64,000 nt of DNA from Microbispora catharanthi (GTDB lineage: Bacteria; Actinomycetota; Actinomycetes; Streptosporangiales; Streptosporangiaceae). Position 1 is the first letter of the stretch; every line of letters starts with the position of its first letter. The notes under the pieces are model-generated. The model saw only the letters and a program-made list of their open reading frames with translations, ran no database searches and was not told the origin of the DNA. Made by a program: the position numbers and the translations under genes. Shown here one piece after another: positions 17,109 to 49,480 of the stretch. The stretch spans positions 248,001 to 312,000 of the forward strand of contig NZ_VDMA02000002.1 in assembly GCF_006334915.2 (NCBI RefSeq). Reading direction: 5' to 3'.

Positions 17109-18470
17109 TCACATACCCGCGATGAGCTTCTCGACTCTCTCGTCGACGCTGCGGAACGGATCCTTGCACAGCACCGTCCGCTGGGCCTGGTCGTTGAGTT
17201 TCAGGTGGACCCAGTCGACGGTGAAGTCACGCCGCTTCTCCTGGGCCTTGCGGATGAACTCCCCGCGCAGCTTGGCCCGTGTGGTCTGCGGCGGAACCGA
17301 CTTGGCCTCGAAGATGCGCACGTCGTCGGCCACCCTCTCGACGGCCCCCCGCTTCTGCAGGAGGTAGAACAGCCCGCGCTTGCGGTGGACGTCGTGGTAG
17401 GCCAGATCGAGCTGCGCGACGCGCGGCGACGACAGCGGCAGGTCGTACTTCTGTCTGTAACGTTCAATCATCTGGTACTTGGTGACCCAGTCGATCTCCC
17501 GCGAGACGAGGTCGAGGTCGCCCGTATCGACCGCCCGGAGCGTGCGCTCCCACAGCTCCAGCACCCGCTTGGCGATGGCGTCCCCGCCGCGCCGGTCGAC
17601 GAAGTCCTGCGCCTTGGTCAGGTACTCCTGCTGGATCTCCAGCGACGAGGCCTCGCGGCCGTTGGCCAGGCGCACCCTCCGCCGGCCCGTCATGTCGTGC
17701 GACACCTCCCGGATCGCCCTGATCGGGTTCTCGAGGGACAGGTCGCGCATCACCACACCGGCCTCGATCATGCGCAGCACCAGGTCGGTGGCGCCGACCT
17801 TGAGCAGCATCGTGGTCTCGCTCATGTTCGAGTCGCCCACGATGACGTGCAGCCTGCGGAACCGCTCGGCGTCCGCGTGCGGCTCGTCGCGGGTGTTGAT
17901 GATCGGCCGGGACCGGGTGGTCGCCGAGGAGACGCCCTCCCAGATGTGCTCGGCCCGCTGGGAGACGCAGTAGACGGCTCCGCGCGGGGTCTGCAGCACC
18001 TTGCCCGCACCGCAGATGATCTGGCGGGTCACCAGATAAGGGATCAGGACGTCGGCCAGCCGCCCGAACTCCCCGTGCCGGCCCACGAGGTAGTTCTCGT
18101 GGCAGCCGTAGGAGTTGCCGGCCGAATCGGTGTTGTTCTTGAACAGGTAGATGTCTCCCGCGATGCCCTCCTCGCGGAGCCGCTTCTCGGCGTCCACGAG
18201 GAGGCCCTCCAGGATCCGCTCCCCCGCCTTGTCGTGGGTGACCAGCTCCACGACGTTGTCGCACTCAGGGGTGGCGTACTCGGGATGGCTGCCCACGTCC
18301 AGGTAGAGACGTGCGCCGTTGCGCAGGAATACGTTGCTCGATCGGCCCCAGGACACCACTCGCCGGAACAGGTACCGCGCCACCTCGTCCGGCGACAGCC
18401 TCCGCTGCCCGCGGAACGTGCAGGTGACGCCGTACTCGTTCTCCAGCCCGAATATGCGTCGATCCATCAC
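17109..18470 (-). CDS. pafA: Pup-protein ligase PafA
   Basis: A 453-aa carboxylate-amine ligase of the glutamine-synthetase-like fold. The ATP/Mg2+ loop FGLENEYG lies near residues 7-14, and the catalytic aspartate is D58 in [33 protein letters not shown] and [13 protein letters not shown] are shared with Dop, as expected for the family. PafA uses ATP to join the C-terminal glutamate of Pup to lysines of target proteins. Two consecutive ATGs (18470, 18467) can start it. Its neighbours are an FKBP lipoprotein downstream and, upstream, a lipoprotein then prcA and prcB. Confidence 0.97.
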
Positions 18471-18536
18471 CTCACACTATTCCCATAAACCGGCGGCCGA
18501 ACAGTGATCAGGCGGTGGAATGCCGAGAAGGAGCCG

Positions 18537-19223
18537 TCAGGCGGCGTAAATCTCCGTCACCTTGACGATCTGCCCGCCCTGAACGGTGATGAGCGCCCGC
18601 AGGTCGCCCGCGTCGGCCCGCAGGACCAGCTTGCCCCGTGAGCAGCGCTGGGTGCCGAGGTACTTGCTGTCGATGGTCTGGTCCTTGCCGTCGCAGCCGA
18701 CCGCGCTGAGGAACACGACGTTCTTCGCGATCGGCGCGGCGAAGGCCGTCACGTCTCCCCCCGGCGGCCCCTCGAAGTGGCCGCTGGTGCTGCCGCCGTA
18801 CTCCTTGACGAACTTGACGGGCCGGTACTCCGCCACGTTCTCGTCGTGCATGGCGACCAGCTGGCCGCGTACGACACCGTCCCTGCTGGGGCTGAGCCCC
18901 TTGGTGAAGTCGTGCCCGGGGTCCGACTGGATGGTCCCGCCGAAGGGGGCCGGCGTCTTGTCCGTGATCGGCGGCCCGGCCTTGCCCGGCTTCCGCGTCG
19001 GCGCGGTCGTGCTCGAGTCGGTGGGCGTGTCCGCCGCCGGGGTGTCGGAGGCCGCCGGATCGGCGGACGGCTCCGCGGGCGACGCCGGGGCCGTCACCGT
19101 CACGGTGGCGGTCACGGTGGGCGAGGCCGAGGTGCCGGAGGCTCCGGAGCATGCGGTCAGCGACAGGAGGGCGACGGCGGCGGCCGGAACGCCCGCTCGC
19201 CGGAAGAGATCAAAAGTCGTCAT
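18537..19223 (-). CDS. Putative lipoprotein of unknown function
   Basis: About 228 aa from ATG 19223. It begins with a lipoprotein signal (MTTFDLFRRAGVPAAAVALL, lipobox LTAC), followed by a Thr/Ser/Pro/Ala-rich linker (about 28-90) and a globular C-terminal part with two cysteines (AVGCDGKDQ and TQRCSRGKL) that could form a disulfide. No enzyme motif is recognised. It sits between pafA and prcA on the same strand, 66 bases from pafA, so it may be co-expressed with the proteasome genes. Confidence 0.75.
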   Translation of the reverse strand: MTTFDLFRRAGVPAAAVALLSLTACSGASGTSASPTVTATVTVTAPASPAEPSADPAASDTPAADTPTDSSTTAPTRKPGKAGPPITDKTPAPFGGTIQSDPGHDFTKGLSPSRDGVVRGQLVAMHDENVAEYRPVKFVKEYGGSTSGHFEGPPGGDVTAFAAPIAKNVVFLSAVGCDGKDQTIDSKYLGTQRCSRGKLVLRADAGDLRALITVQGGQIVKVTEIYAA

Positions 19224-19347: not shown

Positions 19348-20172
19348 CTACTCGCCTGAGCCCGTGTCGATGTCGCCCTCGGGGGCGATCGGCGGGGCGG
19401 TGTCGGGAGCCTGCTCGGCCTGTTCCCGCTCTGCCTGGGCCTCCTCGGCGGCGGGCTGCCGCGCGCCCCCCTGGCTCTCCTGGGCGGCCTCCAGGAGCTT
19501 CTCCAGGCGGGACCCGGTCAGGCGCAGGAACTTGCGGTGCTCCCTGCCCCGGTCGAGGACGGCGACCTCGATCTGGGTCACCGGGGGACGCTCGCCGCCC
19601 GGCTCGGTCAGGGCGGCCAGCGCGGCGTCGAGGGCCTGCGGCAGCGGCAGTCCCTCGCTGTAACGCTCCTTCAGGCGCCCTCCGACGGCTTCGGCCTGGC
19701 CGCCGATCACGGCCATGCCCTGCTCGTCGAAGACGGAGCCGTCGAAGGTGATCCGGTAGATCTGGTCGTCCTCGGCCGCCTCGCCGACCTCCGCGACGAC
19801 GATCTCCACCTCGAACGACTTGATCGACTCGGTGAAGATCATGCCGAGGTGCTGGGCGTACAGGTTCGCCAGGCCGCGGCCGGTGACGTCGTTGCGGTTG
19901 AACGTGTAGCCGTTGATGTCCGCGTAGCGGATGCCGGCCAGGCGGAGCGACTCGAACTCGTTGTAGCGCCCCACTGCGGCGAAGCCGATGCGGTCGTAGA
20001 TCTCGCTGATCTTGTGCAGCGCCTTGGACGGGTTGGGAGCCACGAACAGGATGCCGTCCGCGTACTGCATCACGACCACGCTGCGACCGCGAGCGATGCC
20101 CTTGCGGGCATACTCCGCCCTGTCCCGCATGATCTGCTCGGGCGAGGCATATCCTCCGAAGGGGATGGACAC
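19348..20172 (-). CDS. prcA: 20S proteasome alpha subunit PrcA
   Basis: A 274-aa proteasome alpha subunit starting at GTG 20172 ([25 protein letters not shown]). It has the alpha-specific N-terminal helix and gate, without a catalytic N-terminal threonine. The body shows [30 protein letters not shown] and GGQAEAVG. The C-terminal tail (about 225-274) is long, acidic and Gln/Ala-rich. Heptameric PrcA rings cap the PrcB chamber and bind the Mpa ATPase. It starts about 21 bases after the prcB stop, so the two are co-translated. Confidence 0.96.
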
Positions 20173-20193: not shown

Positions 20194-21030
20194 TTAGCGC
20201 AGCGGCGCGGTCGGGCCTTCGGGGGCGGTCATCCGCCTCTCCAGCATGGACTCCACGAACTCGGCGACCTCGTCGTCCGGGAGGCGGCGGAAGCCGTCGG
20301 CGGTGATGACGGACACGACCGGCCAGATCTTCCGCATCACGTCGGGGCCGCCGGTCGCCGAGTCGTCGTCGGCGGCGTCGTACAGGGCGTGCAGGCAGGC
20401 CAGGACCGTGTCCTGCGGGCTGGAGTTCTCCCGGTAGAGCTTCTTGAGCGAGCCCCGGGCGAAGATCGAACCCGAGCCGATCGAGTGGAACTCCCTCTGC
20501 TCGTACGGCCCGCCGCCCACGTCGTAGCTGAAGATCCGCCCGGTGTCGTGGGACGGGTCGTAGGCCGCGAAGAGCGGCACGACCACGAGGCCCTGCATGG
20601 CCATGGGCAGGTTTCCGCGGATCATGGTGGCCAGGCGGTGCGCCTTGCCCTCGGTCGACAGCGAGCGACCTTCGGTCTTCTCGTAGTGCTCCAGCTCGAC
20701 GCGGTAGAGCCGGGCCAGCTCCAGGCCGGTGCTCGCGGTGCCCGCGATGCCCATGCAGGAGTAGTCGTCGGTGCGGAACACCTTCTCGATGTCCCGCTGC
20801 GAGATGATGTTCCCGGAGGTCGCACGCCTGTCGCCCGCCATCACCACGCCGCCGGCGCAGGTCGCCGCGACGATGGTGGTCGCGTGCGGGATCTCGTCAC
20901 CCACCGGCGCCGCCAGCGACTCGTTGCGGGCGGGCAGCAGGTTCGGCGCGTGCACGCCTAGGAACTCCGAGAACGACGACGATCCCGTATATGTGAAGAG
21001 GCTGTTCATCCAGGCTGGCTGAGATGCCAC
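20194..21030 (-). CDS. prcB: 20S proteasome beta subunit PrcB
   Basis: About 278 aa from GTG 21030, chosen because GGAGGG lies seven bases upstream; a further start upstream is less likely. A propeptide of about 50 residues ends at PHA, followed by the catalytic N-terminal threonine (T51) in [21 protein letters not shown]. Conserved D and K/S contacts are in GDRRATSGN and GIAGTASTG. PrcB makes the proteolytic inner rings and is activated by autocleavage. It is the first gene of the prcB-prcA-lipoprotein-pafA group here. Upstream is a divergent sugar ABC operon rather than pup, which is unusual. Confidence 0.96.
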
Positions 21031-21242
21031 GCGACTCCCTCCAAGCATGCGTTGTTACGCCCGACCATACTCAGGTCTCAGCGCTGGTTGCACTCTTCCC
21101 GATCAGCTCAGCGCGAACCAGACATCCCGCAAGAGGCCGGGCGCGCGTCCCTTACTCGTTCACCAAACCGTTTCTTTACGTGTCGGTAATCGCGTGCGAG
21201 TGTCGATTTGTCCGTACGTCAGGACTTACGGGGAGGTCGATC

Positions 21243-22616
21243 ATGAGACCTGCGCTCGCGGTGGCGGCGGTGGCCCTGTTGACCCTGGGCGCCTGCGGCA
21301 CCGGCGGCTCCGGCGACTCCACAGACGAGGGCGTCACCCTGACCGTCACCGCCAACGCGATCTCCGGCGGCAAGAACGCCGAGACCGCCGACTGGACGGC
21401 CAAATGGGTCATCCCGCGGTTCGAGGCCGCGCAGAAGGCCAAGGGCCGCGACGTCCGCGTGGTGTTCCAGCCGAGCGGCGTGGACGACGAGCAGTACAAG
21501 ACGAAGGTCGCCCTCGACCTCAAGTCACGGGCGGGCGCCGACGTCATCGACCTCGACGGCATCTGGGTGGGCGAGTTCGCCCAGGCCGGGTACGTCAAGC
21601 CGCTCGCCGAGGTGGCCGGTCCCGAGGCGGACTCCTGGGAGGGCTGGAGCCAGATCCCGCAGGCCGTGCAGGGCCTCGGCGCGTTCGAGGGAAAGAGGTA
21701 CGGCCTGCCGCAGGGCACCGACGGGCGGGTGCTGTTCTACAACAGGGCCCTGTTCCGGAAGGCCGGCCTGCCGGACCACTGGCAGCCGCGGAGCTGGCAG
21801 GAGATCCTCGACGCCGGCGCGGCGCTCAAGAGGGCCGGAGTCCCCGTCCCGATCCAGATCGACGCCGGCACCGCCATGGGCGAGGCGACGACCATGCAGG
21901 GCGCGCTGCCGCTGCTGGCGGGCGCGGGGGCGCAGATCTACGCGGACGGCAAGTGGACCGGCGCCTCCCGGGCGCTCAGGGACGTGCTGGACTTCTACCG
22001 GCAGGTCTACTCCGGCGGCCTCGGCGACCCCAGGCTGCAGCAGGAGGCGCGGGGGCGGGACAAGTCGTTCGCCCAGTTCGCCGAGGGCAGGATCGCCATC
22101 CTGGCGGAGGGCGACTACTTCTGGCGGTCGGTGATCGAGCCCGAGGCCGAGGTCGCCCCGATGAAGGACCGCGACTCCGTCGTCGGCTACGCCCTGATCC
22201 CCGCCCAGCGCCCCGGCGCCGGCGTCCGGGGCCAGGACTTCGTCAGCATGTCCGGCGGCGCCGTACGGGTGCTCAACCCCAACTCGAAGAACCCGAAGCT
22301 GGCCTGGGAACTGCTGTCGTTCATGCACTCGGCCGAGGCCACCAGGTCGCAGCTCGCCGGGGCCGCCCGGATCACGGCGCGCAAGGACGTGAACGACACG
22401 GTGCTGGGGGCCGACCCGATGCTGAAGTTCGTCTCCGACGAGGTCCTGCCCCTCACGGCGTACCGGCCGCCCCTGGCCGTCTACCCGCAGGTGTCGGTCG
22501 CCCTGCAGGAGGCCACGGCCGCGGTCGTGGCGGGCACGAGCGTGGACGAGGCGGCCGCCGCCTACCAGCGCAAGGTCGAGTCCCTCGTCGGCGGCCCCGC
22601 CCATGTCGCGAGCTGA
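21243..22616 (+). CDS. Sugar ABC transporter substrate-binding lipoprotein
   Basis: About 457 aa from ATG 21243, with GGGGAGG upstream. A lipoprotein signal (MRPALAVAAVALLTLGACGT, Cys about 18) is followed by an extracellular solute-binding protein type 1 fold: VTLTVTANAISGGKNAETADW, VIDLDGIWVGEFAQAGYVKPL and YGLPQGTDGRVLFYNRALF. Family members bind mono- and oligosaccharides. It is the first gene of an operon running to the GH38 mannosidase, which suggests that the ligand is a mannoside, but this is inference. The long upstream frame extension is not coding. Confidence 0.93.
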   Translation: MRPALAVAAVALLTLGACGTGGSGDSTDEGVTLTVTANAISGGKNAETADWTAKWVIPRFEAAQKAKGRDVRVVFQPSGVDDEQYKTKVALDLKSRAGADVIDLDGIWVGEFAQAGYVKPLAEVAGPEADSWEGWSQIPQAVQGLGAFEGKRYGLPQGTDGRVLFYNRALFRKAGLPDHWQPRSWQEILDAGAALKRAGVPVPIQIDAGTAMGEATTMQGALPLLAGAGAQIYADGKWTGASRALRDVLDFYRQVYSGGLGDPRLQQEARGRDKSFAQFAEGRIAILAEGDYFWRSVIEPEAEVAPMKDRDSVVGYALIPAQRPGAGVRGQDFVSMSGGAVRVLNPNSKNPKLAWELLSFMHSAEATRSQLAGAARITARKDVNDTVLGADPMLKFVSDEVLPLTAYRPPLAVYPQVSVALQEATAAVVAGTSVDEAAAAYQRKVESLVGGPAHVAS

Positions 22617-22618
22617 GC

Positions 22619-23509
22619 ATGGCGCGAGCTGAGTCCGGCACGCTGGGCCGCCGTCCCGCCGTGGGGTTCGTGCTGCCGGCGCTGGTGCTGATCGGGGTGT
22701 TCCTGGTCTTCCCCGCGCTGTGGACCGTCTATCTGGGCCTCACGGACTACCGGCTCACCGGCCTGGCGGCGGCCGATCCGCAGGTGGTGGGGGCGGCCAA
22801 CTACGCCGAGGCGCTGGGCGACGAGCGGTTCCGCACGTCGCTGTGGCTCACCGTGCAGTTCGTGCTCGGCTCGGCCGTGCTCGGGCAGGCGGTGCTCGGG
22901 TTCGCGATCGCGTGGGCGCTGCGCGACCGGCGGGGGCCGCTGAAGAGCCTCACCGAGGGGCTGGTGCTGCTGGCGTGGATCCTGCCGTCGTCGGTCGTCG
23001 CGTTCCTGTGGATCGCGCTGCTCGACCGCGACGGCGGGACGCTGAACGCGATCCTGCACACGCCCGGCTTCGCCTGGCTGCTCGACCACCCCATGGCGTC
23101 GATCATCGTGTTCAACGTCTGGCGCGGCACGGCGTTCTCGATGATGCTGTACGGCGCGGCGCTGGAGAACGTGCCGCCGTCGCACCTGGAGACCGCCCGG
23201 CTCGCCGGCGCGTCGACGCTCCAGCAGCTCAGGGACGTGGTCCTCCCGCACATCAAGGGGCATGTGCTGACGAACCTGCTGCTGATCACGCTGTGGACGT
23301 TCAACGACTTCACGGCCTTCCAGCTCACCGCCGGAGGGCCCGAAGGGCGGTCGGAGATCCTGCCCGTCTACATCTACAACGTCGCGATGAGCGGCGGCAG
23401 GCTCGGTTTCGGCGCCGCGGTCTCCTTCCTCGTCCTCGTGGTGAACCTGGTCCTGGCCTTCGGCTACCTGCGCCTCCTGCGGTCCCGGGGGGAAGTGAGG
23501 CCGTCATGA
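22619..23509 (+). CDS. Sugar ABC transporter permease (MalF type)
   Basis: About 296 aa from ATG 22619, starting two bases after the binding-protein stop. Six hydrophobic helices are visible, and the EAA loop ETARLAGASTLQQLRDVVLPHI that contacts the ATPase is near residues 190-210. It forms one half of the membrane channel for the carbohydrate transporter. Its stop overlaps the next permease start (ATGA). Confidence 0.94.
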   Translation: MARAESGTLGRRPAVGFVLPALVLIGVFLVFPALWTVYLGLTDYRLTGLAAADPQVVGAANYAEALGDERFRTSLWLTVQFVLGSAVLGQAVLGFAIAWALRDRRGPLKSLTEGLVLLAWILPSSVVAFLWIALLDRDGGTLNAILHTPGFAWLLDHPMASIIVFNVWRGTAFSMMLYGAALENVPPSHLETARLAGASTLQQLRDVVLPHIKGHVLTNLLLITLWTFNDFTAFQLTAGGPEGRSEILPVYIYNVAMSGGRLGFGAAVSFLVLVVNLVLAFGYLRLLRSRGEVRPS

Positions 23510-24330
23510 CGCCGGTGCGCCACATGCTGGGGACCATCGGGCGGGCCGCCTTCCTGGCCCTGGTGCTGGGGTTCTTCGCGCTGCCGCTGCTGTGGCTGGC
23601 TTCGGCGCCGTTCGACGCCCACCCGTCGATCACGGCCTCGGTGCCGGAGTTCACGCTGGCGAACTTCCGGGCTCTGCTGGACAACCCGTACGCGCTGGGC
23701 TCGCTGCGCAACTCGCTGATCCAGGCGTGCGGCAGCGCGGCCCTGGTCGTGACGCTGGCCGCGCTGGCGGCGTACGCGCTGTCGCGGGCGCGGGTGCCCG
23801 GCCGCGACGCGCTGCTGTACGTCCTGCTGCTCCTGTCGTCGGTGGTGACGGGGACGGCGGCGATGGTGCCGCTGTTCGAGCTGGCGACCCGGCTGAACCT
23901 GATCGACACCCACCTCGGCGTCGTGCTCACGCTGTCGGGTGGCCTGCTCCCCGCCGCGATCTTCATCCTGAAGGACTTCATGGACGCCACGCCCACGTCG
24001 TACGAGGAGTCGGCGCGGGTGTTCGGCGCGTCGCCGGGGCAGGTGCTGCGGCACGTCGTGATCCCGCTGGTGCGGCCCGGCCTGGCCACGATCGCGGTGT
24101 GGGCGGTCGCAGGAGTGTGGGGCAGCTTCCTGCAGCCGTTCATCCTGCTGCGCGACCCGGACAAGGCCCCCGGCGCGGTCATCCTCTACACGCTCTACAC
24201 CGAGGGCGGCGCGCCGCGCCTCGATGTGATCTCGGCGTTCTCGCTGCTCTACTCGCTGCCGGTGGTGGTGATGTACGTGTTCGTCAGCCGGAGGTACGGC
24301 TTCCGCTTCCACGGGGGGATCAAGCGGTGA
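23506..24330 (+). CDS. Sugar ABC transporter permease (MalG type)
   Basis: A 274-aa permease with six membrane helices, LLWLASAPFDAHP near the first helix and an EAA loop YEESARVFGASPGQVLRHVVIPL at about 165-190. It pairs with the MalF-type permease. It starts at ATG 23506, overlapping the upstream stop by four bases, and ends by overlapping the ATPase start (GTGA), so the three are tightly coupled. Confidence 0.94.
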   Translation: MTPVRHMLGTIGRAAFLALVLGFFALPLLWLASAPFDAHPSITASVPEFTLANFRALLDNPYALGSLRNSLIQACGSAALVVTLAALAAYALSRARVPGRDALLYVLLLLSSVVTGTAAMVPLFELATRLNLIDTHLGVVLTLSGGLLPAAIFILKDFMDATPTSYEESARVFGASPGQVLRHVVIPLVRPGLATIAVWAVAGVWGSFLQPFILLRDPDKAPGAVILYTLYTEGGAPRLDVISAFSLLYSLPVVVMYVFVSRRYGFRFHGGIKR

Positions 24331-25385
24331 TCGCGTTGCGCGGCCTGACCAAGGAGTTCCCCGGCGGGGTGCGGGCGGTCGACTCGCTCGACCTGGAGAT
24401 CGGCGACGGCGAGTTCTTCGCGCTGCTCGGCCCGTCGGGCTGCGGCAAGACGACGCTGCTGCGGACGATCGCCGGCCTGGAGACCCCCACCTCGGGGCGG
24501 ATCGAGATCGGCGGCGTGGACGTGACCGGAACGCCTCCGGGACGGCGGGACGTCGCGATGGTCTTCCAGGACTACGCGCTGTTCCCGCACATGGACGTGA
24601 CCGCCAACATCGCCTATCCGCTGCGGATCAGGAAGGTCCCGCGGGCCGGGCGCGAGGCGAAGGCCGCCGAGACGGCGTCCCGGCTCAGCCTGTCGGAGCT
24701 GCTGGACCGCAGGCCCGGCCAGTTGTCCGGCGGGCAGCAGCAGCGCGTGGCGCTCGCGCGTGCGGTCGCCTGCCACCCCAAGGCGTTCCTGTTCGACGAG
24801 CCGCTGTCGAACCTGGACGCGCGGCTGCGCCTGGAGGCCCGCACGTTCCTCAAGCGCCTGCAGCGCGAGCTGGCGGTGACCACGGTCTTCGTCACGCACG
24901 ACCAGAGCGAGGCGCTCGCGCTGGCCGACCGCATCGCGGTCATGTCGGCCGGGCGGATCACGCAGCTCGGCACGCCGTCCGAGGTGTTCCGCCGCCCGGC
25001 CACCACGTTCGTGGCCTCCTTCATCGGGTCGACGCCGATGAACCTGCTGCCGGGCGTCGCGAAGGACGGCGTGCTGCGGGTGGCCGGGGCCGAGTTCCCC
25101 CTGCCGGACGGCGCGCCCGAGGGCGAGGTCCTGTACGGCCTGCGGCCCGAGTACGCCGACCTGACCACCCGGGAGCCCGGGGAGAAGGGGGCGTTCCCGG
25201 GGAAGGTGGCGGTGGTGGAGAACCTCGGCACGGCCCATCTCGTCACGCTGGAGTGCACGGACCACTTGCTGCAGGTGGTGGTCCCCGAGGGCGCCGAGCC
25301 CCCGCCGGGGACGGCCGCCTGGGCGGTGCCCCGCCCAGGCCGGGCGCTGCTCTACCGCGACGACACCCTGGTGGGTGGCGCGTGA
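24327..25385 (+). CDS. ABC transporter ATP-binding protein (MsmK/UgpC-like)
   Basis: A 352-aa ATPase with Walker A GPSGCGKTT, the Q-loop FQDYALFPHM, the signature LSGGQQQRVALARAVA, Walker B FLFDEPLSN and the H-switch VTHDQ. A C-terminal TOBE-like regulatory domain (about 240-352) is typical of carbohydrate importers. It powers the two permeases immediately upstream. The start is GTG 24327, which overlaps the previous stop. Confidence 0.95.
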   Translation: MIALRGLTKEFPGGVRAVDSLDLEIGDGEFFALLGPSGCGKTTLLRTIAGLETPTSGRIEIGGVDVTGTPPGRRDVAMVFQDYALFPHMDVTANIAYPLRIRKVPRAGREAKAAETASRLSLSELLDRRPGQLSGGQQQRVALARAVACHPKAFLFDEPLSNLDARLRLEARTFLKRLQRELAVTTVFVTHDQSEALALADRIAVMSAGRITQLGTPSEVFRRPATTFVASFIGSTPMNLLPGVAKDGVLRVAGAEFPLPDGAPEGEVLYGLRPEYADLTTREPGEKGAFPGKVAVVENLGTAHLVTLECTDHLLQVVVPEGAEPPPGTAAWAVPRPGRALLYRDDTLVGGA

Positions 25386-37502: not shown

Positions 37503-37537
37503 AAGGCGTTCCCTAGCCCCCAAGGAGACAGGCGTAC

Positions 37538-38494: not shown

Positions 38495-38852
38495 ATCAAG
38501 GCCGTCGCGACGATGAACGCGATGTCGTCGTCACTGATCGGGCGGGGACGGACCGGACCCGGTTGGCGCGACAGCCTCTGACAAGCTGCGGCACTCATCG
38601 CCGCATTCTCGGCGGCCCTGGACGATGACGCGCATGCCGAGAGTGCCGCCGAATCATGAGGCAGCCCAGTTTCCCGGCATGCCTACCCTCCCGAGCGATG
38701 ACCTCTGGAGAAGCTCGCTTGATCTCCTCCCCGAGGACCTCAAACCCGACGCTCGAACTGCTCGCACGCGCTGACCGGCGGAAAGGTCCCGCCGGTGAGG
38801 TGGCCGACGGGACGTTCGCATGGAGTGGTCAGCGCCTGCGGCGAGTCGTGTG
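38495..38852. other. Intergenic region with weak transposase-like remnant
   Basis: About 358 bases without a confident gene. On the minus strand next to the oxidoreductase stop, a short reading (38491 to about 38575) VRPRPISDDDIAFIVATALI resembles the part of IS630-type transposases before their catalytic region, but it is too short to be sure. The rest shows no gene-like pattern. Confidence 0.35.
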
Positions 38853-39470: not shown

Positions 39471-39556
39471 TCTGCTGGTCACTCCCCTAGATCGGCTGCC
39501 CGTGGGGGGCTGCCCGTGATCGGTTGACGGAACGCTCAGCAGTTTGGGCCCCTACA

Positions 39557-39574
39557 CCTGAAGCGAGCCTGAAG
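39557..39574. promoter_or_regulatory. Direct-repeat site for the adjacent OmpR-type regulator
   Basis: CCTGAAG at 39557-39563 and again at 39568-39574, an 11-base period that is typical of OmpR/PhoP-type tandem binding. It lies between the divergent secreted-protein gene and the regulator gene. It is a candidate target of that regulator. Confidence 0.55.
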
Positions 39575-39628
39575 AGGTAAGCGATGATCTTCATGTTCAC
39601 CTTAGGTTCTTACCTTCACCCTGTTGCC

Positions 39629-40297: not shown

Positions 40298-40298
40298 C

Positions 40299-41624
40299 AT
40301 GGGCGTACGTCTACGCACGACGCTGACGGCCACCGCCGCGGTGGCGGCGGCGCTCTGCCTGGCCTCGATCGCGCTGTTCGCCGCGCTGGACTCGAGCCTG
40401 ACGGCCTCCACCAAGGAGTTGGCGGCGAACGACGCCAAGAAACAGATGCAACATCTGAAGGCGGAGTCGGAGCCGGGCGACCCGGGGTACGGAAAGGGAA
40501 TGGTGCCACCGCTTGGAAAGGGAGCGGTGCCGCCGGGCGGGAAGGGACCGTTGCCGGGCTCGGCTGCCACCGGCGAAGACGACGGCCCCCCGTTACCCGA
40601 CGAGGCCGTGCTCGTGGTCAGACGGACGTTCGAGACCGAGGACGGCCCGGTCACCGTCCTCGGAAAGGCCTCCAAGGGACCCGCCCTGGCGGCGATGACC
40701 ACGCTGAGGAACCTGCTGATCCCGGGGGTTCCGGCGCTCCTCACGGTGGTCGCGCTGTTCACCTGGCTGGCGGTCGGCCGCGTGCTACGGCCGGTCTCCG
40801 CGATCAGGGCGAAGGTCGCCGACATCACCGCGTACGGCCTGCACGAACGCGTGCCGGAACCGGACACCCGAGACGAGATCGCGGCACTGGCCCGTACCGT
40901 CAACGCGACCCTCGACCGGCTGCAGACCGCCGTCGACGCGCAGCGACAGTTCGTCGCCGACGCCGCACACGAACTCCGCAGCCCACTGGCGATCCTGCGA
41001 ACCCGACTGGAGCTGGCCCTGCCCGCCGAGAAGCCGCTGGCGACTGCGGCACTGGACGATGTCGCACGCCTCCAGTCCCTTTCCGCCGACCTCCTCCTGC
41101 TGGCCCGGCTCGACGCCGGCGAACCCCTGTCGCGGGCCGAGGAACTGGACCTGGCCCAGGTCGTCGCCGAGGAGGCCGTCCGCAAACGCCCTCGTCCGGA
41201 CGTCCACGTGTACCTCGACCTCACCCCCGACCTGCTCGTCAACGGCTCCGCCGACCAACTCCGCCGCCTTGTGGCGAACCTCGTCGACAACGCGGTCCGC
41301 CACGCCTCCACGTCAGTCCACGTCACCCTCACGTCTCCGGACGACCACGCCGTCCTCGACGTCGTGGACGACGGCCCCGGCATCCCCCCGGAACACCACA
41401 CCATCGTCTTCGACCGATTCACCCGCCTGGACCACGCCCGCACCCGGGACACGGGAGGCTCGGGGTTGGGGCTGCCGATCGCCCGGGATATCGCGCGGGC
41501 TCACGGGGGGACCCTCCATGTCGTCCCGCACAGCCCGGGCGCACGGCTACGCGCGGTCTTCCCGTTGTCCGGACGGTCTGTTGCGTACCCGCTGGGTGAC
41601 CTTGCGGTGCGGGCCCGCGTGTAG
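40299..41624 (+). CDS. Membrane sensor histidine kinase
   Basis: A 441-aa sensor kinase: two transmembrane helices (about 10-32 and 138-160) flank an extracytoplasmic domain with a Gly/Lys/Pro tract (GYGKG...PLGKG...GGKG at about 63-86). HAMP is about 160-210, the phosphoacceptor is H224 (DAAHELRSPL), then N-box NLVDNAVRH and G-boxes DDGPGIP and GGSGLGL. It pairs with the response regulator one base upstream. The signal is unknown. Confidence 0.94.
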   Translation: MGVRLRTTLTATAAVAAALCLASIALFAALDSSLTASTKELAANDAKKQMQHLKAESEPGDPGYGKGMVPPLGKGAVPPGGKGPLPGSAATGEDDGPPLPDEAVLVVRRTFETEDGPVTVLGKASKGPALAAMTTLRNLLIPGVPALLTVVALFTWLAVGRVLRPVSAIRAKVADITAYGLHERVPEPDTRDEIAALARTVNATLDRLQTAVDAQRQFVADAAHELRSPLAILRTRLELALPAEKPLATAALDDVARLQSLSADLLLLARLDAGEPLSRAEELDLAQVVAEEAVRKRPRPDVHVYLDLTPDLLVNGSADQLRRLVANLVDNAVRHASTSVHVTLTSPDDHAVLDVVDDGPGIPPEHHTIVFDRFTRLDHARTRDTGGSGLGLPIARDIARAHGGTLHVVPHSPGARLRAVFPLSGRSVAYPLGDLAVRARV

Positions 41625-41708
41625 GAGGCGCAGCCGCGGGGGGTACTGACTTCTCGCCCCATGCGCTCGCCGGCATCGCCGCCCGACGCGCCCGCGGCCG
41701 GGTCGCGG

Positions 41709-42086
41709 TCACGACGAGGCCGGTGTCACCGTGCCGGATGTCAGAGCCGCCTGCACGATGCGGATCGCCTCGCCCGTATCGATGCCGACGCTGGCGACCA
41801 CGGCCGCGTAGTCGGCGGCGGCCCGGCGGGCCCGCTCCAGGCCATCCTCGCCGGCGGCCGACACGAACGAGCCCGCCCGCCCGCGCGTCTCGATCAGTCC
41901 TGCCTCCTCCAGCTCCCGGTACGCCCGGCCGACCGTGTTCACGGCCAGGCCAAGGTCGGCCGCGAGCTGGCGGATGGTCGGAAGGCGGGTGCCCACGGCC
42001 AGCGTGCGATCCTGAATCTGCCGGGCGAGCTGGGCCCGCAGCTGCTCGAACGGCGGCACCGGCGAGGCCGCGTCGATGACGATCAT
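41709..42086 (-). CDS. GntR-family (YtrA-like) regulator
   Basis: A 125-aa protein with an N-terminal GntR winged helix: PPFEQLRAQLARQI, then LPTIRQLAADLGLAVNTVGRAYRELEEAGLIETRG, and a short C-terminal helix. This is the YtrA subfamily size, which often regulates ABC or membrane protein genes. ATG 42086 overlaps the stop of the preceding membrane protein by four bases, so the two are coupled and the regulator likely autoregulates. Confidence 0.92.
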   Translation of the reverse strand: MIVIDAASPVPPFEQLRAQLARQIQDRTLAVGTRLPTIRQLAADLGLAVNTVGRAYRELEEAGLIETRGRAGSFVSAAGEDGLERARRAAADYAAVVASVGIDTGEAIRIVQAALTSGTVTPASS

Positions 42087-42898
42087 CGGACGCTCATCAC
42101 CCGCCGGGCCACCGTCGCGCTCGACGGCGTCCTGACGCGGAGCGCGACGCACGCGACCACGCCCAAGATGACGTTGGCGACCGCAGCGGCGCTCAACCAG
42201 CCGGGCGCGGTGCCGAACAGCAGCACCATGGGCAGCGACCACTGCACGCTCGGCGTGGTGAGGTCGCGGGCGTCCTCGACGCGCATGATGACGTCGGCGA
42301 TCAGCGACTCCTCGTCCTCCGCCACGACCGGGCGCCGCAGCAGGTGGCGCAGTTGCATGGCGCTGATGGCTGTCACGCCGAGCAGGCCGATCAGCAGGAC
42401 GACGGCCAGTTGCCGCACGGTGGGGTCGGGAACGGCCAGGGCGCTCCCGGCCAGCACCATCGCGCCGGCGAACGTGGCGACCGCGAAGACGGCGTACGGC
42501 AGGCCGAGCACGGCCCGCCAGCCGGGCTGGATCGGATGGGCGGCCCTGCGGGACAGCGACGCGCCCGCCCGCTGATCGACGCGTCGCACCCACCAGTCGA
42601 GCAGCGACTGTGCGAGCAGCAGCCCGGCCACCAACGCGGTCAGGGCCAGCAGCGGCAGCGGGCGATGCGACTGGAAGCCACCGAAGGCGGAAGTGGCGGC
42701 GAGCGCACTCGCGATGATCAGCACGGCCAGGATGAGGTGAGCGGCGAGGCGGGCGCGTCCCCGGACCGCCAGCCGGCTGGCCAGCAGCGGGGTCGGGCGG
42801 GCACCGGACAGGCCGTGCCGGGAAAGCCACTCGCCCGCCAGTCGCAGATCGGCGGCACGCGCCGACGGGCCGGCGTCCGGTAACGGTTCATGGGCCAT
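42083..42898 (-). CDS. Multi-pass membrane protein next to a GntR regulator
   Basis: A 271-aa protein with about six hydrophobic helices (from residue 55 onward) and a polar N-terminus with WLSRHGLSGARP. I do not recognise the family, but its pairing with a YtrA-type GntR regulator and overlap of four bases are typical for regulated membrane proteins of envelope stress. ATG 42898 is preceded by AAAGGAGGGG, a strong ribosome-binding site. Confidence 0.8.
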   Translation of the reverse strand: MAHEPLPDAGPSARAADLRLAGEWLSRHGLSGARPTPLLASRLAVRGRARLAAHLILAVLIIASALAATSAFGGFQSHRPLPLLALTALVAGLLLAQSLLDWWVRRVDQRAGASLSRRAAHPIQPGWRAVLGLPYAVFAVATFAGAMVLAGSALAVPDPTVRQLAVVLLIGLLGVTAISAMQLRHLLRRPVVAEDEESLIADVIMRVEDARDLTTPSVQWSLPMVLLFGTAPGWLSAAAVANVILGVVACVALRVRTPSSATVARRVMSVR

Positions 42899-42930
42899 AA
42901 CCCCTCCTTTGTCGCAAGATTTGTAGCAAC

Positions 42931-42960
42931 ATCATGAGACATACCTTGAGACAAAGTCAA
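42931..42960 (-). promoter_or_regulatory. Promoter with direct-repeat operator for the membrane protein/GntR pair
   Basis: A -35 TTGACT (42955-42960) and -10 CATGAT (42931-42936), spacer 18, stand upstream of the membrane protein gene. In the spacer are two TGAGACA copies (plus-strand text) at 42935 and 42947, a 12-base period, likely bound by the GntR protein. Confidence 0.5.
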
Positions 42961-43047
42961 CGCCCCGTGAGCTCCTCATCGGGACGTGGCCGTTCGGCCG
43001 GTGCGTGAATGCAGCGTCGGCGCGGAGGCGGGTTGTCGCGAGAGCCC

Positions 43048-43218
43048 TCACGCGCCGTACTCGTCGGTGTCGGCGATCTCGGCTATCCGTACGCGGTCCA
43101 GCTGCAGACCCCACCAACGGCCGACGTCCGCGGGGTACGGCAACGTCTCACGCCTCTGCCGACACCACCAGTTCCACGGCAGCGCATCGGCGGCGGATGC
43201 ACGGTCATCATGGGTCAC
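43048..43218 (-). CDS. 56-aa peptide with WNWW motif, coupled to upstream small ORF
   Basis: GTG 43218 overlaps the TGA of the preceding small ORF (GTGA). The 56-residue product has a natural composition: ALPWNWWCRQRRETLPYP, then RWWGLQLDRVRIAEIADTDEYGA. I recognise no family; it may be a gene fragment. It lies in debris left of dop. Confidence 0.35.
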   Translation of the reverse strand: MTHDDRASAADALPWNWWCRQRRETLPYPADVGRWWGLQLDRVRIAEIADTDEYGA

Positions 43219-43340
43219 CCACGCCGGTCGGCGTCGTTGTCGTCCTCGGCAGGCAGGGCGCCGCAGTGCCCGCACTCGCCCCTTCCGCGCTGGGCTTCGC
43301 GGCACGTGGTCAGCTCGGCTGTACAAGCGCGGCCAGCCAC
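43215..43340 (-). CDS. 41-aa Cys-rich small ORF
   Basis: From GTG 43340 the frame reads ACTAELTTCREAQRGRGECG then HCGALPAEDDNDADRRG, with a C-x2-C pair and an acidic tail. It overlaps the end of a receiver-domain fragment and is coupled to the next ORF by GTGA. It could be a zinc-finger-like fragment. No ribosome-binding site is clear. Confidence 0.3.
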   Translation of the reverse strand: MAGRACTAELTTCREAQRGRGECGHCGALPAEDDNDADRRG

Positions 43341-43525
43341 GCGGCGCTGTAGGGCTTGACCACGTAACGGTCGGTACCGGCGTCGAGCAGGCGGACCATG
43401 TCGGCCTTCCCGTCCCTGGCGGTGGCGACGATGACCGGGCCACGGCTCGCCGCGCGGAGCATGCGCAGCAGGTCGGCGCCGTCCATGTCGGGCAGACCGA
43501 GGTCGAGCACGATCGCCGGCGGGGT
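43310..43525 (-). pseudogene. Receiver-domain fragment of a response regulator
   Basis: The minus frame shows PPAIVLDLGLPDMDGADLLR, the phosphoacceptor D and the KPYSAAWLAALV end of a receiver domain, followed by a stop. The first about 45 residues and the whole DNA-binding domain are missing, and an in-frame TGA precedes it. It is a decayed response regulator fragment next to dop. Confidence 0.7.
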
Positions 43526-43586: not shown

Positions 43587-45104
43587 TCAGCCCTCGCCGG
43601 TGAGGGCGGCGACGAGGTCGGCGGCCGTACGGCACCGGTCGAGCAGGTCGCCCACATGCGCCTTGGTGCCGCGCAGCGGCTCCAAGGTCGGCACGCGCTG
43701 CAGTGACTCGCGGCCCGGGATGTCGAAGATGACCGAGTCCCAGGAGGCGGCGGCGACCGACTCGCTGTACTGCCGCAGGCACCGGCCGCGGAAGTAGGCC
43801 CGGGTGTCGGTGGGCGGCATCTCGACCGCGCGGTCGACGTCCTCGTCGGTCACCAGACGCTGCATCCGGCCCCTGGCGACCAGCCGGTTGTACAGGCCGC
43901 GGTCGGGGCGGATGTCGGAGTACTGCAGGTCGACCAGTTGCAGCCGCGGATGCGACCACGGCAGGTTGTCGCGGGTGCGGTAGCCCTCAAGGATCTCCAG
44001 CTTGGCGACCCAGTCGAGCTCCCGGGACAACTGCATCGGGTCCTCCGCGAGCCGGGTGAGCACCGACTCCCAGCGGTTGAGCACGTCCTTGGTGAGGTCG
44101 TCCACGCCCGAGCCGAAGCGGTCCTCGACGTACTTGCGGGCCTGCTCCAGGTACTCCATCTGCAACTGCACGGCGGTCATCTTCCGCCCGTTGCGCAGCG
44201 CGATCTCGTACTTGCAGGTCGGGTCGTGGGAGACCGCGCGCAGCGCCGCGACCGGCGACTCGGGGGTCAGATCGATGGTGAGGAACCCCTCCTCGATCAT
44301 CGCCAGGACCAGCGCCGTCGTGCCCAGCTTCAAATATGTCGAAATTTCCGACATGTTGGCGTCGCCGATGATCACGTGCAGCCGCCGGTACTTCTCCGGG
44401 TCGGCGTGCGGCTCGTCGCGGGTGTTGATGATCGGCCGCTTGAGCGTGGTCTCCAGCCCGACCTCGACCTCGAAGAAGTCGGCCCGCTGGCTGATCTGGA
44501 AGCCCTCGCCGCGCGAGTCCTGGCCGATCCCGACCTTGCCCGCGCCGCAGACGACCTGCCGCGACACGAAGAACGGCGTCAGGTGCCTGACGATGTCGGC
44601 GAACGGCGTCGCGCGGCGCATGAGGTAGTTCTCGTGGCAGCCGTACGACGCGCCCTTGGCGTCGGTGTTGTTCTTGTACAGCTGGATGGGGGCGTTGCCG
44701 GGCACGGCGGACGCCCGCACGGCGGCGTCGTACATCACCCGCTCGCCCGCCTTGTCCCAGAGCACCGCGGCCCGGGGGTTGGTGCACTCGGGTGTGGAGT
44801 ACTCCGGGTGGGCGTGGTCGACGTAGAGGCGCGCGCCGTTGGTGAGGATCACGTTGGCGAGCCCGAGGTCCTCGTCGGTGAGCTGGCTCTGGTCGGCCAC
44901 CTCACGGGCCAGGTCGAACCCTCGGGCATCGCGGAGCGGGTTCTCCTCCTCGAAGTCCCACCGGGCCCGGCGAGCCCGGGCGGCCGACGCCGCCAGGTAC
45001 GCGTTGACGACCTGTGAGGAGGTCACCATCGCGTTCGCTCCCGGTTGACCGGGCACGGCGATGCCGTACTCGGTCTCGATGCCCATCACCCGCCGAACCG
45101 TCAT
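43587..45104 (-). CDS. dop: Pup deamidase/depupylase Dop
   Basis: A 505-aa glutamine-synthetase-fold enzyme. E10 and E12 in MGIETEYG bind Mg-ATP, the catalytic D96 is in [12 protein letters not shown], and the Dop-specific loop (about 52-80, [20 protein letters not shown]) that separates it from PafA is present. It deamidates the C-terminal Gln of Pup to Glu and removes Pup from proteins. ATG 45104 gives the family N-terminus [14 protein letters not shown]. Usually followed by pup; here it is followed by fragments and the accessory block. Confidence 0.97.
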
Positions 45105-45180: not shown

Positions 45181-46434
45181 TTACGGCACAGATGCCTCGG
45201 GACTTTGCGCCGGAATGGCCGTCGCAGTCCGGGAGGCACCCCCACGGCCCCGGGGATGGGACCTCCGGGACCGGTCGAGCAGGGCCCCCAGCCTGGCACG
45301 AAGCCAGCGCTGACCGGGCTTGTCCACCATACGGTAGATCAGGTACGCGAGCCCGATCGAGACCGCCATCGTGATCGCGACCAGCGGCCACGGGTCGATC
45401 ACGTCCCGGTACGCGGGGATCACGACGGCCGAGACCGTCTGGTGCAGGAGATAGAGCGGATACGTGAGGGCCCCCAGGGTGACGAGGCGGCGCCAGCGCA
45501 CCCACCGCAGCCAGCCGAGGGCGACCGCGGCCATCAGAAGGTAGACGACCGTGATCGCGACGACGACGGCCTCAGGGGGCGCGGGGTAATGCTTGATGCC
45601 GACCAGGCGCACCCGCTCCCCTACGCGCTCCATGGCGGCGTACAGGGACATTCCGTAGCCCGCGGCCACGAGCAGCCACGGGATGAAAGCCCCCGAACGC
45701 ACCCCGAAGCGATGGATCAGGAAGAAGGCCATGCCCGCGATGAAGTACGGCGCCTGCCGCGGCATGAAGACGAAGACCAGCGTCTCGTTCTGGGTGAACT
45801 CGGCCAGCAGCGCCAGGCCGAACCAGGCCGCCAGGAACACCAGGCAGCGCCGCAGCGTGATCCCCACGAGAGAGAACAGCGCCACGAGGACGTAGAACCG
45901 CAGCTCCACCCAGAGTGACCAGAAGACGCCGCCGGCGTGGCCCACGCCGAAGGCCCCCTGGAACATGGTCAGGTTGAGCAGGTACTCACCGTCGCTGAGC
46001 TTGGGGTCGAACCCGGCGACCCCGCTGAAGCGGTACATGATGAAGATCACGAGCACGGCGAACCAGTACGCCGGATACAGCCGCGACACCCGGGAGACGG
46101 CGAACTCCCCGATCGTGTGCCCCCAGACGCTCATCAGGATGACGAACCCGCTGATGAGGAAGAACAGCTCGACGCCGAGGATGCCCAGCGTGGTCAGGCG
46201 GGCGACCGGCTCGAACAGCTTGGTGGGGAACTCGTCCCACAGCGACTTGCTGGCCGCCATGAAGTGGAAGGCCATGACGGCGAAGGCGGCCACGAAGCGC
46301 AGGACGTCGAGCTCGACCAGGCGGCGGCTCCCGACGGCCGCGGCGGCGGCCCGGACGGGGACCGCGTCCGGCGCGGCCGAGGCCGGATCGGACCGGCGCA
46401 CCGGCTGTCTTACAGGCTGTCCCACAGCGGTCAC
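45181..46434 (-). CDS. Acyltransferase-3 family membrane protein
   Basis: A 417-aa integral membrane acyltransferase of the OafA/YrhL type. Conserved start region [21 protein letters not shown], then [20 protein letters not shown] and [15 protein letters not shown] are present with ten or so hydrophobic helices. It acylates cell-surface sugars or lipids using an acyl donor from the cytoplasm. It is inserted between dop and mpa on the same strand, which is not the usual neighbour. Confidence 0.93.
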
Positions 46435-46647: not shown

Positions 46648-48411
46648 TTACAGGTACTGGCCGGTGTTGGCGACCGTGTCGATCGACCGCCCGGCCTCGG
46701 TGCCCTGCTTGCCCTGCACGAGGGTGCGGATGTAGACGATCCGCTCGCCCTTCTTGCCGGAGATGCGGGCCCAGTCGTCGGGGTTGGTGGTGTTGGGCAG
46801 GTCCTCGTTCTCGGAGAACTCGTCCACGCAGGCGGCCAGCAGGTGCGAGATCCGCAGGCCCTTCTGCCCGGTGTCGAGGAACTCCTTGATGGCCATCTTC
46901 TTGCCCCGGTCCACGATGTTCTGGATCATGGCGCCGGAGTTGAAGTCCTTGAAGTAGAGGACTTCCTTGTCGCCGTTGGCGTAGGTCACCTCGAGGAAGC
47001 GGTTCTCCTCGCTCTCGGCGTACATCCGCTCGACGACCCGCTGGATCATCGCGGCGATCGTGCCGTCGCGGCTGTCGCCGTGCTCGGCCAGGTCGTCCGG
47101 GTGCAGCGGCAGGTCGCTGACGATGTACTTCGAGAAGATGTCCTTGGCCGCCTCGGCGTCGGGCCGCTCGATCTTGATCTTGACGTCCAGGCGGCCGGGC
47201 CGCAGGATCGCCGGGTCGATCATGTCCTCGCGGTTGGAGGCGCCGATGACGATGACGTTCTCCAGGCCCTCGACACCGTCGATCTCCGAGAGGAGCTGGG
47301 GGACGATGGTGTTCTCGACGTCGGAGGACACACCGGAGCCGCGGGTGCGGAAGATCGAGTCCATCTCGTCGAAGAACACGATCACCGGGGTGCCCTCGGA
47401 CGCCTTCTCACGCGCCCGCTGGAAGACCAGGCGGATGTGCCGCTCGGTCTCACCGACGTACTTGTTGAGAAGCTCGGGGCCCTTGATGTTGAGGAAGAAG
47501 CTCTTGCCGGACTGGCCGGTCTTCTCCGCGACCTGCTTGGCCAGGGAGTTGGCCACCGCCTTGGCGATGAGCGTCTTGCCGCAGCCGGGCGGGCCGTACA
47601 GCAGCACGCCCTTCGGCGGCCGGAGCTTGTGCTCGCGGAACAGGTCGGCGTGCAGGTAGGGCAGCTCGATGGCGTCCCTGATCTGCTCGATCTGCCGGCC
47701 GAGGCCGCCGATCTCCTCGTAGGAGATGTCGGGGACCTCCTCGAGGACGAGCTCCTCCACCTCGGACTTGGGGATGCGTTCGTAGACGTAGTTGGAACGG
47801 GGTTCGAGCAGGAGGGAGTCGCCGGCCCGCAGCGGCTGGTCCAGCAGCGAGTGGGCGAGCTTGACGACCCGCTCCTCGTCGGCGTGCGAGATGACGAGCG
47901 CGCGGTCGCCGCTCTCCAGCAACTCCTTGAGCATCACGATCTCGCCGACGTCCTCGTAGCCGAGGGCCTCGACGACGTTGAGCGCCTCGTTCAGCATGAC
48001 CTCCTGGCCACGCTTGAGCGAGTCGACGTCGACCGCCGGACTGACGTTCACACGGAGCTTGCGCCCGCCCGTGAACACCTCGATCGTGCCGTCATCCCTG
48101 GCCTCGAGGAAAACGCCGAATCCGGACGGCGGCTGTGCCAGCCGGTCGACCTCCTCCTTGAGGGCGACGATCTGATCCCTGGCCTCCTTGAGGGTGGAGA
48201 CCACACGCTCGTTCTGGCTTGTGAGGGCGGCCACCTGTGCCTGCGCCTCGTGGAGACGCTCCTCGATGACCCTGGCCTGCCGGGGAGACTCGGCCAGCTT
48301 CCGGCGCAACGCGGTGATCTCCTCTTGCAGGAAGGAGACCTGTGTTGTGAGATCCGCGACCTCCCGTTCGCGCTGCGCGGCTCGAGCCTCAGCGTCGTCG
48401 CGAGCTGCCAC
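46648..48411 (-). CDS. mpa: Proteasome-activating AAA ATPase Mpa/ARC
   Basis: A 587-aa AAA+ ATPase. The N-terminal coiled coil (about 1-95) binds Pup; the two OB folds are about 100-225; the AAA domain follows with Walker A GPPGCGKT (273-280), Walker B IVFFDEM (344-350) and sensor residues. The last residues are GQYL, the motif that docks on PrcA rings. The start GTG 48411 is preceded by a full AAGGAGGTGA Shine-Dalgarno. It is between trmI and an acyltransferase gene. Confidence 0.97.
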
Positions 48412-48616
48412 GCCCCGTCACCTCCTTCCCCGTCGAGAACGACTACTCAAGACCCTACCTATCTTGGCGCTGTACGTAACCTGGCCGGGCAGTGTTCGTG
48501 TAGTTACGTTGGGTGTTCGGCGTTTGATACCTTATGGACCGATTGTTCGGTTCACCATTAGGAACACACCCATATGTTCCCGTGTCACGCGGCTTTGCCG
48601 GGTTGTGGCTGAATCG

Positions 48617-49480
48617 TCACACTTGTTCGATCCCCTCTCCATACGCCCCCTTGGCGGGACGCCTGCGCCGCGGCGGGGGCGTGACGCCGTCCGCCATGCG
48701 ACGGGCCATGACGAGAAATCCCGTGTGGCCGACCATCCGGTGGTCGGGCCGTACGGCGAGACCTTCGACATGCCAGTCGCGAACCAGGGTCTCCCACGCG
48801 TGAGGCTCGGTGAAACTCCCGTGCTCCCGCAGGGTTTCCACCGTTCTGGACATCTGGGTCGTTGTCGCAACATAGCAGCAGATAACTCCCCCGGGGGTAA
48901 GGGACTTCGCCGCCGCGTCAACACACTCCCAAGGCGCGAGCATGTCGAGGATGACGCGGTCGACGTCCGCCTCGTCCAGCGCGTCGACGAAGTCACCGAC
49001 CACCAGGCGCCACTGCCCCATCGGGCCGCCGAAGAACTTCTCCACGTTCTTGGTGGCCACCTCGGCGAAGTCCGCGCGCCGCTCGTAGGAGGTGACCTTC
49101 CCCTCCTGGCCGACCGCGCGCAGCAGGAAACAGGTGAGCGCGCCGGACCCCACGCCGGCCTCGACCACCCGGGCGCCGGGGAAGATGTCGGCCATGGCGA
49201 CGATCTGGGCCGCGTCCTTCGGGTAGACCACCGCGGCGCCGCGCGGCATCGACACCGCGTAGTCGGCGAGCAGGTGCCGGAACGCCAGGTAGGCCGTGCC
49301 GCCTGAGGACCGCACCACGGACCCCTCGGGCTGTCCGATCAGGTCGTCGTGCGGGATCGACCCCTTGTGCGTGTGGAAGACGCCGCCCTCTTTCAGCGTC
49401 ACCGTGTGCCGCTTGTTCTTGGGGTCGGTGAGCTGGACCTGATCTCCGGCCCGGAAGGGGCCGTGCCTGCGAAAACCCAT
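48617..49480 (-). CDS. trmI: tRNA (adenine-58-N1)-methyltransferase TrmI
   Basis: A 287-aa class I methyltransferase. ATG 49480 gives MGFRRHGPFRAGDQVQLTDP. The SAM motif VVEAGVGSGALTCFLLRAVG, YERRADFAEVA and DRVILDMLAPWE are typical for TrmI. It methylates adenine 58 of tRNA T-loops, forming a tetramer. It is the classical neighbour upstream of mpa; a 205-base gap to mpa holds the promoter. Confidence 0.95.
   Translation of the reverse strand: MGFRRHGPFRAGDQVQLTDPKNKRHTVTLKEGGVFHTHKGSIPHDDLIGQPEGSVVRSSGGTAYLAFRHLLADYAVSMPRGAAVVYPKDAAQIVAMADIFPGARVVEAGVGSGALTCFLLRAVGQEGKVTSYERRADFAEVATKNVEKFFGGPMGQWRLVVGDFVDALDEADVDRVILDMLAPWECVDAAAKSLTPGGVICCYVATTTQMSRTVETLREHGSFTEPHAWETLVRDWHVEGLAVRPDHRMVGHTGFLVMARRMADGVTPPPRRRRPAKGAYGEGIEQV

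Follow-up and report, generated by a model that had tools for sequence, protein, structure and literature searches.

How can the genes of a Pup-proteasome locus lie kilobases apart with their order and strand intact? The question is raised by a 64,000-nt stretch of the Microbispora catharanthi genome (positions 248,001 to 312,000 of contig NZ_VDMA02000002.1; hereafter the window, whose own numbering is used throughout), in which mpa-dop-pup-prcB-prcA-pafA follow one another in this order, all on the minus strand. The passages on the actinobacterial locus in PMC3511204 and PMC8223512 give the same genes, order and strand. However, Barandun et al. 2012 (PMC3511204), in the part that outlines the cluster, place pup directly upstream of prcBA and dop usually before pup, whereas in the window these junctions stand open by ~10 and ~12 kb (intergenic distances of 9.92 kb from pup to prcB and 12.42 kb from dop to pup); dop, pup and prcB, which stand side by side in recognised Pup-proteasome loci, are no longer neighbours here. 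Comparison with related genomes makes it very probable that an ancestral compact mpa-dop-pup-prcB-prcA-pafA cluster was opened junction after junction by insertions of unrelated genes. The locus comprises:

17109–18470, minus strand: pafA, Pup ligase (Pfam PF03136, E 9.5e-168)
18537–19115, minus strand: 192-aa uncharacterised protein, cluster c8, at the prcA/pafA junction (gene maps)
19348–20079, minus strand: prcA, proteasome alpha subunit (PF00227)
20194–21030, minus strand: prcB, proteasome beta subunit (PF00227, translation)
30953–31162, minus strand: pup, 69 aa (PF05639, translation)
43587–45089, minus strand: dop (PF03136, E 3e-197, translation)
45181–46401, minus strand: acyltransferase at the mpa/dop junction (PF01757)
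46648–48411, minus strand: mpa/ARC (Pfam, translation)
48617–49480, minus strand: trmI (Pfam)

An earlier reading of the DNA letters alone (the sequence-only reading) had named pafA, prcA, prcB, pup, dop, mpa and trmI in the usual order on the minus strand, with gaps of ~9.9 and ~12.4 kb; Pfam searches upheld these assignments with small changes of start, and our measured distances agree. Its diagnostic motifs held for Pup and Mpa, whose translations end in GGQ (Gly-Gly-Gln) and GQYL, and for the mature catalytic threonine of PrcB, Thr51 numbered from a GTG start at 21030 that comparison of start and ribosome site supports; the aspartate of the Dop VDHAHPE stretch, formerly D96, is residue 91 from our chosen, uncertain start. 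The split into three pieces was likewise real but understated, since small inserts also occupy the mpa/dop and prcA/pafA junctions: an acyltransferase common to the genus and several other genera (gene maps and tree), and the c8 protein, common to most genus loci and several other genera, which had no Pfam match (a longer frame was searched) and no NCBIfam match. All six genes, pup, dop, pafA, mpa, prcA and prcB, were found in one genome (9.25 Mb, 68 contigs), for which the domain matches listed comprise one Pup, two Pup_ligase (Dop and PafA), two proteasome subunits and one Mpa OB domain, all inside the window. A second contiguous cluster elsewhere, which the earlier reading had considered, did not appear among the matches listed in this own-genome search. 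PrcB shares 98% identity with its counterpart in M. bryophytorum DSM 46710 and 87% with the one in M. oryzae. The Pup-proteasome locus of M. catharanthi is ordinary and probably complete.

We surveyed the junctions in 80 genomes (15 of the genus including M. catharanthi, 34 other members of the family Streptosporangiaceae, and 31 from outside it), scoring gaps as the distance between domain matches, so that some coding sequence is counted in. Gene maps were drawn for 32 taxa, namely all 15 Microbispora and 17 of the 65 others, chosen mainly for open gaps, and named gene maps covered 31 of 80 named loci. Within the genus, the dop-pup gap exceeded 1.5 kb in 13 of 13 measurable genomes (median 4.6 kb, maximum 12.6 kb, in M. 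catharanthi), and that between pup and prcB was at least 2.8 kb in 14 of 14 (median 6.2, maximum 12.6 kb). Among the other family members, 12 of 32 dop-pup gaps and 8 of 33 pup-prcB gaps were wider than 1.5 kb, plus one inverted case, and outside the family the corresponding figures fell to 3/24 and 0/25, with a pup-prcB maximum of 932 bp. In the named maps, pup and prcB were at most 700 bp apart in five loci of streptomycete type and in single loci of Nocardioides, Kribbella and Motilibacter. The prcB-prcA junction was the sole one never split in the 32 mapped taxa. Because the locus is largely compact outside the family, in line with the description in PMC3511204, the dop-pup-prcBA order of the ancestor was likely compact.

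Two side observations came from the same survey. In genome G039 (loci L139 and L140), prcB-prcA and the ABC transporter (ATP-binding cassette) genes are inverted together with respect to pup and pafA; no other inversion came up in the 80 genomes among pairs that could be measured within a single contig. Extra proteasome-family genes off the main locus occurred, among the matches listed, in two related genomes, at G018:C90:4438-6540 and G016:C105:45837-46376.

What, then, fills the gap between pup and prcB? It holds a block of seven genes on the strand opposite to the proteasome genes:

21261–25385, plus strand: sugar-type ABC transporter, comprising binding protein, two permeases and ATPase (Pfam, gene maps)
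25382–26653, plus strand: PHP-domain, CehA/McbA-type metallohydrolase (Pfam, NCBIfam)
26722–27933, plus strand: GFO/IDH/MocA oxidoreductase (Pfam)
27944–30688, plus strand: GH38 alpha-mannosidase, end of the block (Pfam)

The gene maps revealed the whole block in five Microbispora (G000, G002, G010, G012 and G013) and in three mapped taxa outside the genus (G019, G036 and G042), and the remaining mapped species carried subsets or no block genes. All seven genes were also evident in the named map of Planobispora siamensis, and parts of the block in Nonomuraea and Sphaerisporangium. The missing pieces begin and end at different points from species to species (at about 25168/21223, 25370/21207, 25383/21206, 25401/21122 and 26659/21141 in window positions), so the losses were repeated; none of the listed deletions extends into the upstream element of prcB described below. 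Trees of the cargo genes agreed with the proteasome-gene tree (Spearman 0.93 for GH38, 0.96 for the oxidoreductase, 0.94 for the acyltransferase and 0.89 for the kinase next to pup). As a first step, comparison of the loci thus shows that an opposite-strand sugar block was established between pup and prcB before the genus arose, was inherited with the locus across several genera, and was partly deleted several times.

The dop-pup gap has a different content, in which a kinase gene is followed by an insert and by a remnant of a regulator gene:

31547–32521, plus strand: Ser/Thr kinase, divergent from pup (Pfam)
32562–43326, no strand assigned: mosaic insert in place of the two-component system of congeners (homology breaks against congeners)
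43327–43513, minus strand: response-regulator remnant (scar), 187 bp, 88–93% identical to the intact gene in 8 congeners

The kinase is old, being found in the locus of 26 of the 32 mapped taxa, adjoining pup or one gene off; in the window, pup and kinase lie back to back across 31162–31547, and even the otherwise compact G045 retains it. In nine genus members, the space between dop and the kinase is taken up by a set of genes for a response regulator, a histidine kinase, a PepSY protein and a small uncharacterised product, although in G003 the set and the kinase are parted by a contig end. G009 and G014 have the PepSY gene alone of this set. Several taxa of other genera harbor cobalamin-type genes at dop|pup instead. 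These comprise a chelatase-like ATPase, CobO and CobB in loci L135, L131, L136, L141 and L145, the families being tested in L135/G029 only and assigned by clustering in the rest, with CobB alone in L136. A 24.9-kb dop-pup gap with other content was observed in G037. The second step that these maps show is the presence of the kinase close to pup in the majority of mapped loci, with a two-component system separating it from dop in most Microbispora.

Homology of M. catharanthi to its congeners ends 3' of the kinase at 32496–32561 and restarts at 43327–43340, within the scar, which corresponds to the inner part of the response-regulator gene, with a partial receiver domain, fused to the dop downstream region. 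Comparison of this join with G013 revealed, by eye, little or no shared sequence and no long direct repeat. Because homology stops and resumes in this manner, leaving 187 bp of the response regulator, the two-component set was removed and 10.8 kb substituted for it. This third step, likewise evident from comparison, replaced the two-component system by a mosaic, one module of which is interrupted by an IS982-type transposon. The mosaic is recent, and private to M. catharanthi among the 15 genus members compared. No transfer RNA (tRNA) gene was detected in the window, nor any RNA family at gathering threshold in 15000–50000, and the 12 interval proteins given to Pfam matched no integrase, transfer or phage family (PHROGs was not searched). 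The mosaic consists of:

32591–33504 and 36627–36808, minus strand: module A, S-adenosylmethionine-dependent methyltransferase (NCBIfam TIGR00027)
33505–36626, no strand assigned: element B, transposon of 3,122 bp (ends, empty site, NF033520)
36841–38498, no strand assigned: module C, TetR regulator and zinc-type dehydrogenase / quinone-oxidoreductase-like protein (congener comparison)
38749–41672, no strand assigned: module D, uncharacterised protein, response regulator and histidine kinase (congener comparison)
41677–42992, minus strand: module E, GntR regulator and 213-aa protein without family match (congener comparison)

Modules A, C, D and E together are about 90–98% identical to pieces located at other chromosomal sites of other Microbispora. 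Identity to the congener copies is 92–95% for A, and in five congeners each it reaches 92–98% for C, 90–95% for D and 91–94% for E; cargo functions are read from family matches. Module C also occurs at 92% on a Streptomyces violaceusniger plasmid, and genes like module A at 81–82% on nine Streptomyces plasmid records among the 19 listed. Within the own genome, no second long module copy above 71% was found among the listed matches, of which short ones (at most 231 bp) reach 73–74%. The module D site of G010 and G012 is empty in M. catharanthi, with 31 bp between the flanks, and M. catharanthi also has, devoid of the modules, the sequences that border A (in G010) and E (in G001) on the left. 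Module ends vary by 4 to 80 bp between hosts, near stop codons or past the promoter side. We told genomic contexts apart by flanks of at most 1.5 kb and counted them in six hosts per module; for A, G012 was left out, as were the partial copies of C (G014) and of E (G012). This yielded five contexts for A and four each for C, D and E, and M. catharanthi was the sole member of its context for all four modules. The idea that each module sits at a different site in every species is ruled out by these groups (5/4/4/4 among 6 hosts). The uncharacterised gene of module D (38853–39470) contains an internal tandem duplication of 137 nt, 88% identical, at a spacing of 159.

Element B interrupts module A and encodes an IS982-family transposase (NF033520, 176.9 bits against a cut-off of 130, E 5.1e-52), a TetR regulator and an uncharacterised protein. 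It is bounded by perfect 12-bp inverted repeats, with a CTAG target duplication at 33501–33504 and 36627–36630, and M. bryophytorum (G003) has the transposon-free site; no further perfect copy of the terminal repeat is present in the window. Transposons of the IS982 family are about 1 kb long, and this repeat-bounded 3.1-kb unit departs from them in length and in its passenger genes, the transposase itself matching the family. The distribution of the modules fits arrival by horizontal transfer, and we infer non-homologous joining, which together would make up a further step. A Ku gene is present in the genome, and PMC6722414, in its treatment of short insertions, ties these to end joining in Streptomyces.

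Could the proteasome core be expressed apart from pup? Alignment of the 15 genus loci uncovered a conserved stretch immediately upstream of prcB:

21031–21121, minus strand: 91-nt upstream element of prcB, putative promoter/leader (15 genus loci aligned)

This element is near-identical in 15 of 15 loci, irrespective of which gene adjoins it (binding protein, metallohydrolase or oxidoreductase). Within it, ungapped identity reaches 0.83–0.97, and declines to 0.50 at −120 to −92 and to 0.36–0.37 past −121. Its core matched at least 14 of 16 positions in 28 of the 32 loci, against 0/200 shuffles each, including G045, G047 and G018, with gaps below 0.8 kb, and the inverted G039, where the element moved along with prcB-prcA. 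Four loci fell below 14/16: G049, G030 (13/16, also 0/200 shuffles), G020 and G037. A 27-nt core, compared in 20 of the 80 named loci, matched at 20–26 positions in nine from Streptosporangiaceae, the Sinosporangium value of 20 being only just higher than the 19 reached by another stretch of that locus. A conserved block precedes pup as well; a RecA-NDp/PafBC motif there did not fit, by eye only, the spacing that we take it to have. Since the element is kept with every neighbour, and its core recurs in compact relatives, prcBA probably had its own promoter, and separate expression, before the large inserts opened the gap. The proposal of the sequence-only reading that insertion uncoupled expression is weakened by the same two observations. 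The insertions would have been tolerated because pup and prcBA already possessed upstream elements, which insertions and deletions spared; order and strand may accordingly have been kept by inheritance, not by selection for order.

To place the locus in its surroundings, we followed gene pairs adjacent in the compact relative G045 through 400 kb around it. In M. catharanthi, 59 of 59 matched pairs kept their order, one of them an apparent false match; the distance exceeded 1.5 kb in nine and 9 kb in three, namely dop|kinase, pup|prcB and the apparent false ortholog call (217,859 bp, a false reciprocal best hit). The same test in G010 gave 84 of 86 pairs in order, 14 above 1.5 kb and three above 9 kb, including pup|prcB. 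These counts indicate that the opening of the locus goes beyond chance, that retained order with insertions is the rule in the region and that the proteasome locus is its extreme. Random scatter is ruled out by the 59 ordered pairs and by the order kept in the locus. About 4.4 kb past pafA, pafC and a second WYL regulator (pafB-like) map at 10855–12743; the genes in between include those for an FKBP isomerase and a GH46 chitosanase.

The view of the sequence-only reading that blocks were inserted into an ancestral cluster is thus borne out by census and gene maps, the opening being earlier and stepwise. Dispersal is no peculiarity of M. catharanthi: every measurable genus member is open, and the pup|prcB block predates the genus. 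The early caveat that close relatives might all be dispersed applies within the genus, but not to the dop|kinase mosaic.

Several observations weigh against this account of stepwise opening. Herbidospora and Sinosporangium have pup adjoining prcB, so that the block is not family-wide, and other content occupies this junction in two Nonomuraea (2.1–2.3 kb) and in Actinomadura/Actinoallomurus (0.9–1.8 kb). The binding-protein tree agrees less well with the proteasome tree (Spearman 0.74, 10 taxa), and the genus tree has short branches, shown without support values. In Actinomadura, Actinoallomurus, Streptomyces, Nocardioides, Kribbella and others the match to the 27-nt core is equalled or surpassed by another stretch of the locus, and the 91-nt element is a putative promoter, called so from conservation. 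The mosaic is known from one draft genome, the single assembly of the strain that was compared, and its scar joins look blunt by eye, which would fit end joining and is no proof of it. The background test covers one 400-kb region with 59 pairs, in which others opened too (5.4, 3.7 and 3.2 kb).

Dispersal could instead be ancestral, with the compact order of other actinomycetes derived, as the uniformly dispersed genus might suggest. We regard this as extremely unlikely, given that outside the family pup|prcB is below 1 kb in 25 of 25 genomes and dop|pup at most 1.5 kb in 21 of 24, and that the inserts are lineage-specific, a two-component system in Microbispora and cobalamin-type genes elsewhere. 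A functional super-cluster, in which mannosidase and importer, kinase and proteasome genes are held together by joint function, would account for the frequent kinase and for a sugar block common to several genera. It is nevertheless very unlikely: the block lies on the opposite strand, its genes were lost piecemeal in many species retaining the proteasome genes, and the dop|kinase cargo was replaced outright.

The mosaic itself invites two further explanations. In a draft genome, pieces joined end to end whose relatives sit at unrelated sites might betray an assembly artefact, to which we give little credence because the stretch contains no N, the transposon ends in perfect repeats, is flanked by a target duplication and is missing from its site in G003, no second close module copy appears among the listed matches, one donor-type site is cleanly empty, and the scar sits where congeners have the intact gene. 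Cargo that differs at dop|pup in several lineages would also be expected of an integration hot spot for a conjugative element or phage; the lack of a tRNA in the window, of any visible long direct repeat where the scar is joined and of integrase or transfer families among the 12 proteins of the M. catharanthi interval makes this highly improbable. Opening of a compact cluster by successive insertions remains the explanation that we favour.

A bolder extension of it, which we consider unlikely, is that the prcBA of Streptosporangiaceae gained a private, strongly constrained control element, turning what had been one operon into separately controlled parts. The freed junctions would then be docking sites for small regulator-plus-enzyme modules, four of them end to end in M. 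catharanthi, that move between Microbispora intergenic sites as whole transcription units, with near-constant ends, while encoding neither transposase nor integrase themselves. The part of PMC6722414 on Streptomyces indel flux likewise reports indels of one to many genes with varied gene sets per site, and synteny-break hot spots are the subject of related Streptomyces work, as outlined for Synteruptor (PMC11195616). Unlike those hot spots, the site here lies within a conserved multi-gene system, and its oldest insert is inherited across genera. At title and abstract level, in mainly open-access literature, we found no earlier description of such a split arrangement.

Collectively, these data indicate that a feature often taken as a hallmark, the placing of dop and pup next to the proteasome core, is dispensable, and put the steps of its loss in order. 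Compact, half-open, open and inverted loci form a natural series for comparing how Pup, Dop and the core are controlled, for which the 91-nt stretch provides a candidate control element of prcB, and the mosaic is a clear case of accessory modules gathering within a conserved locus.

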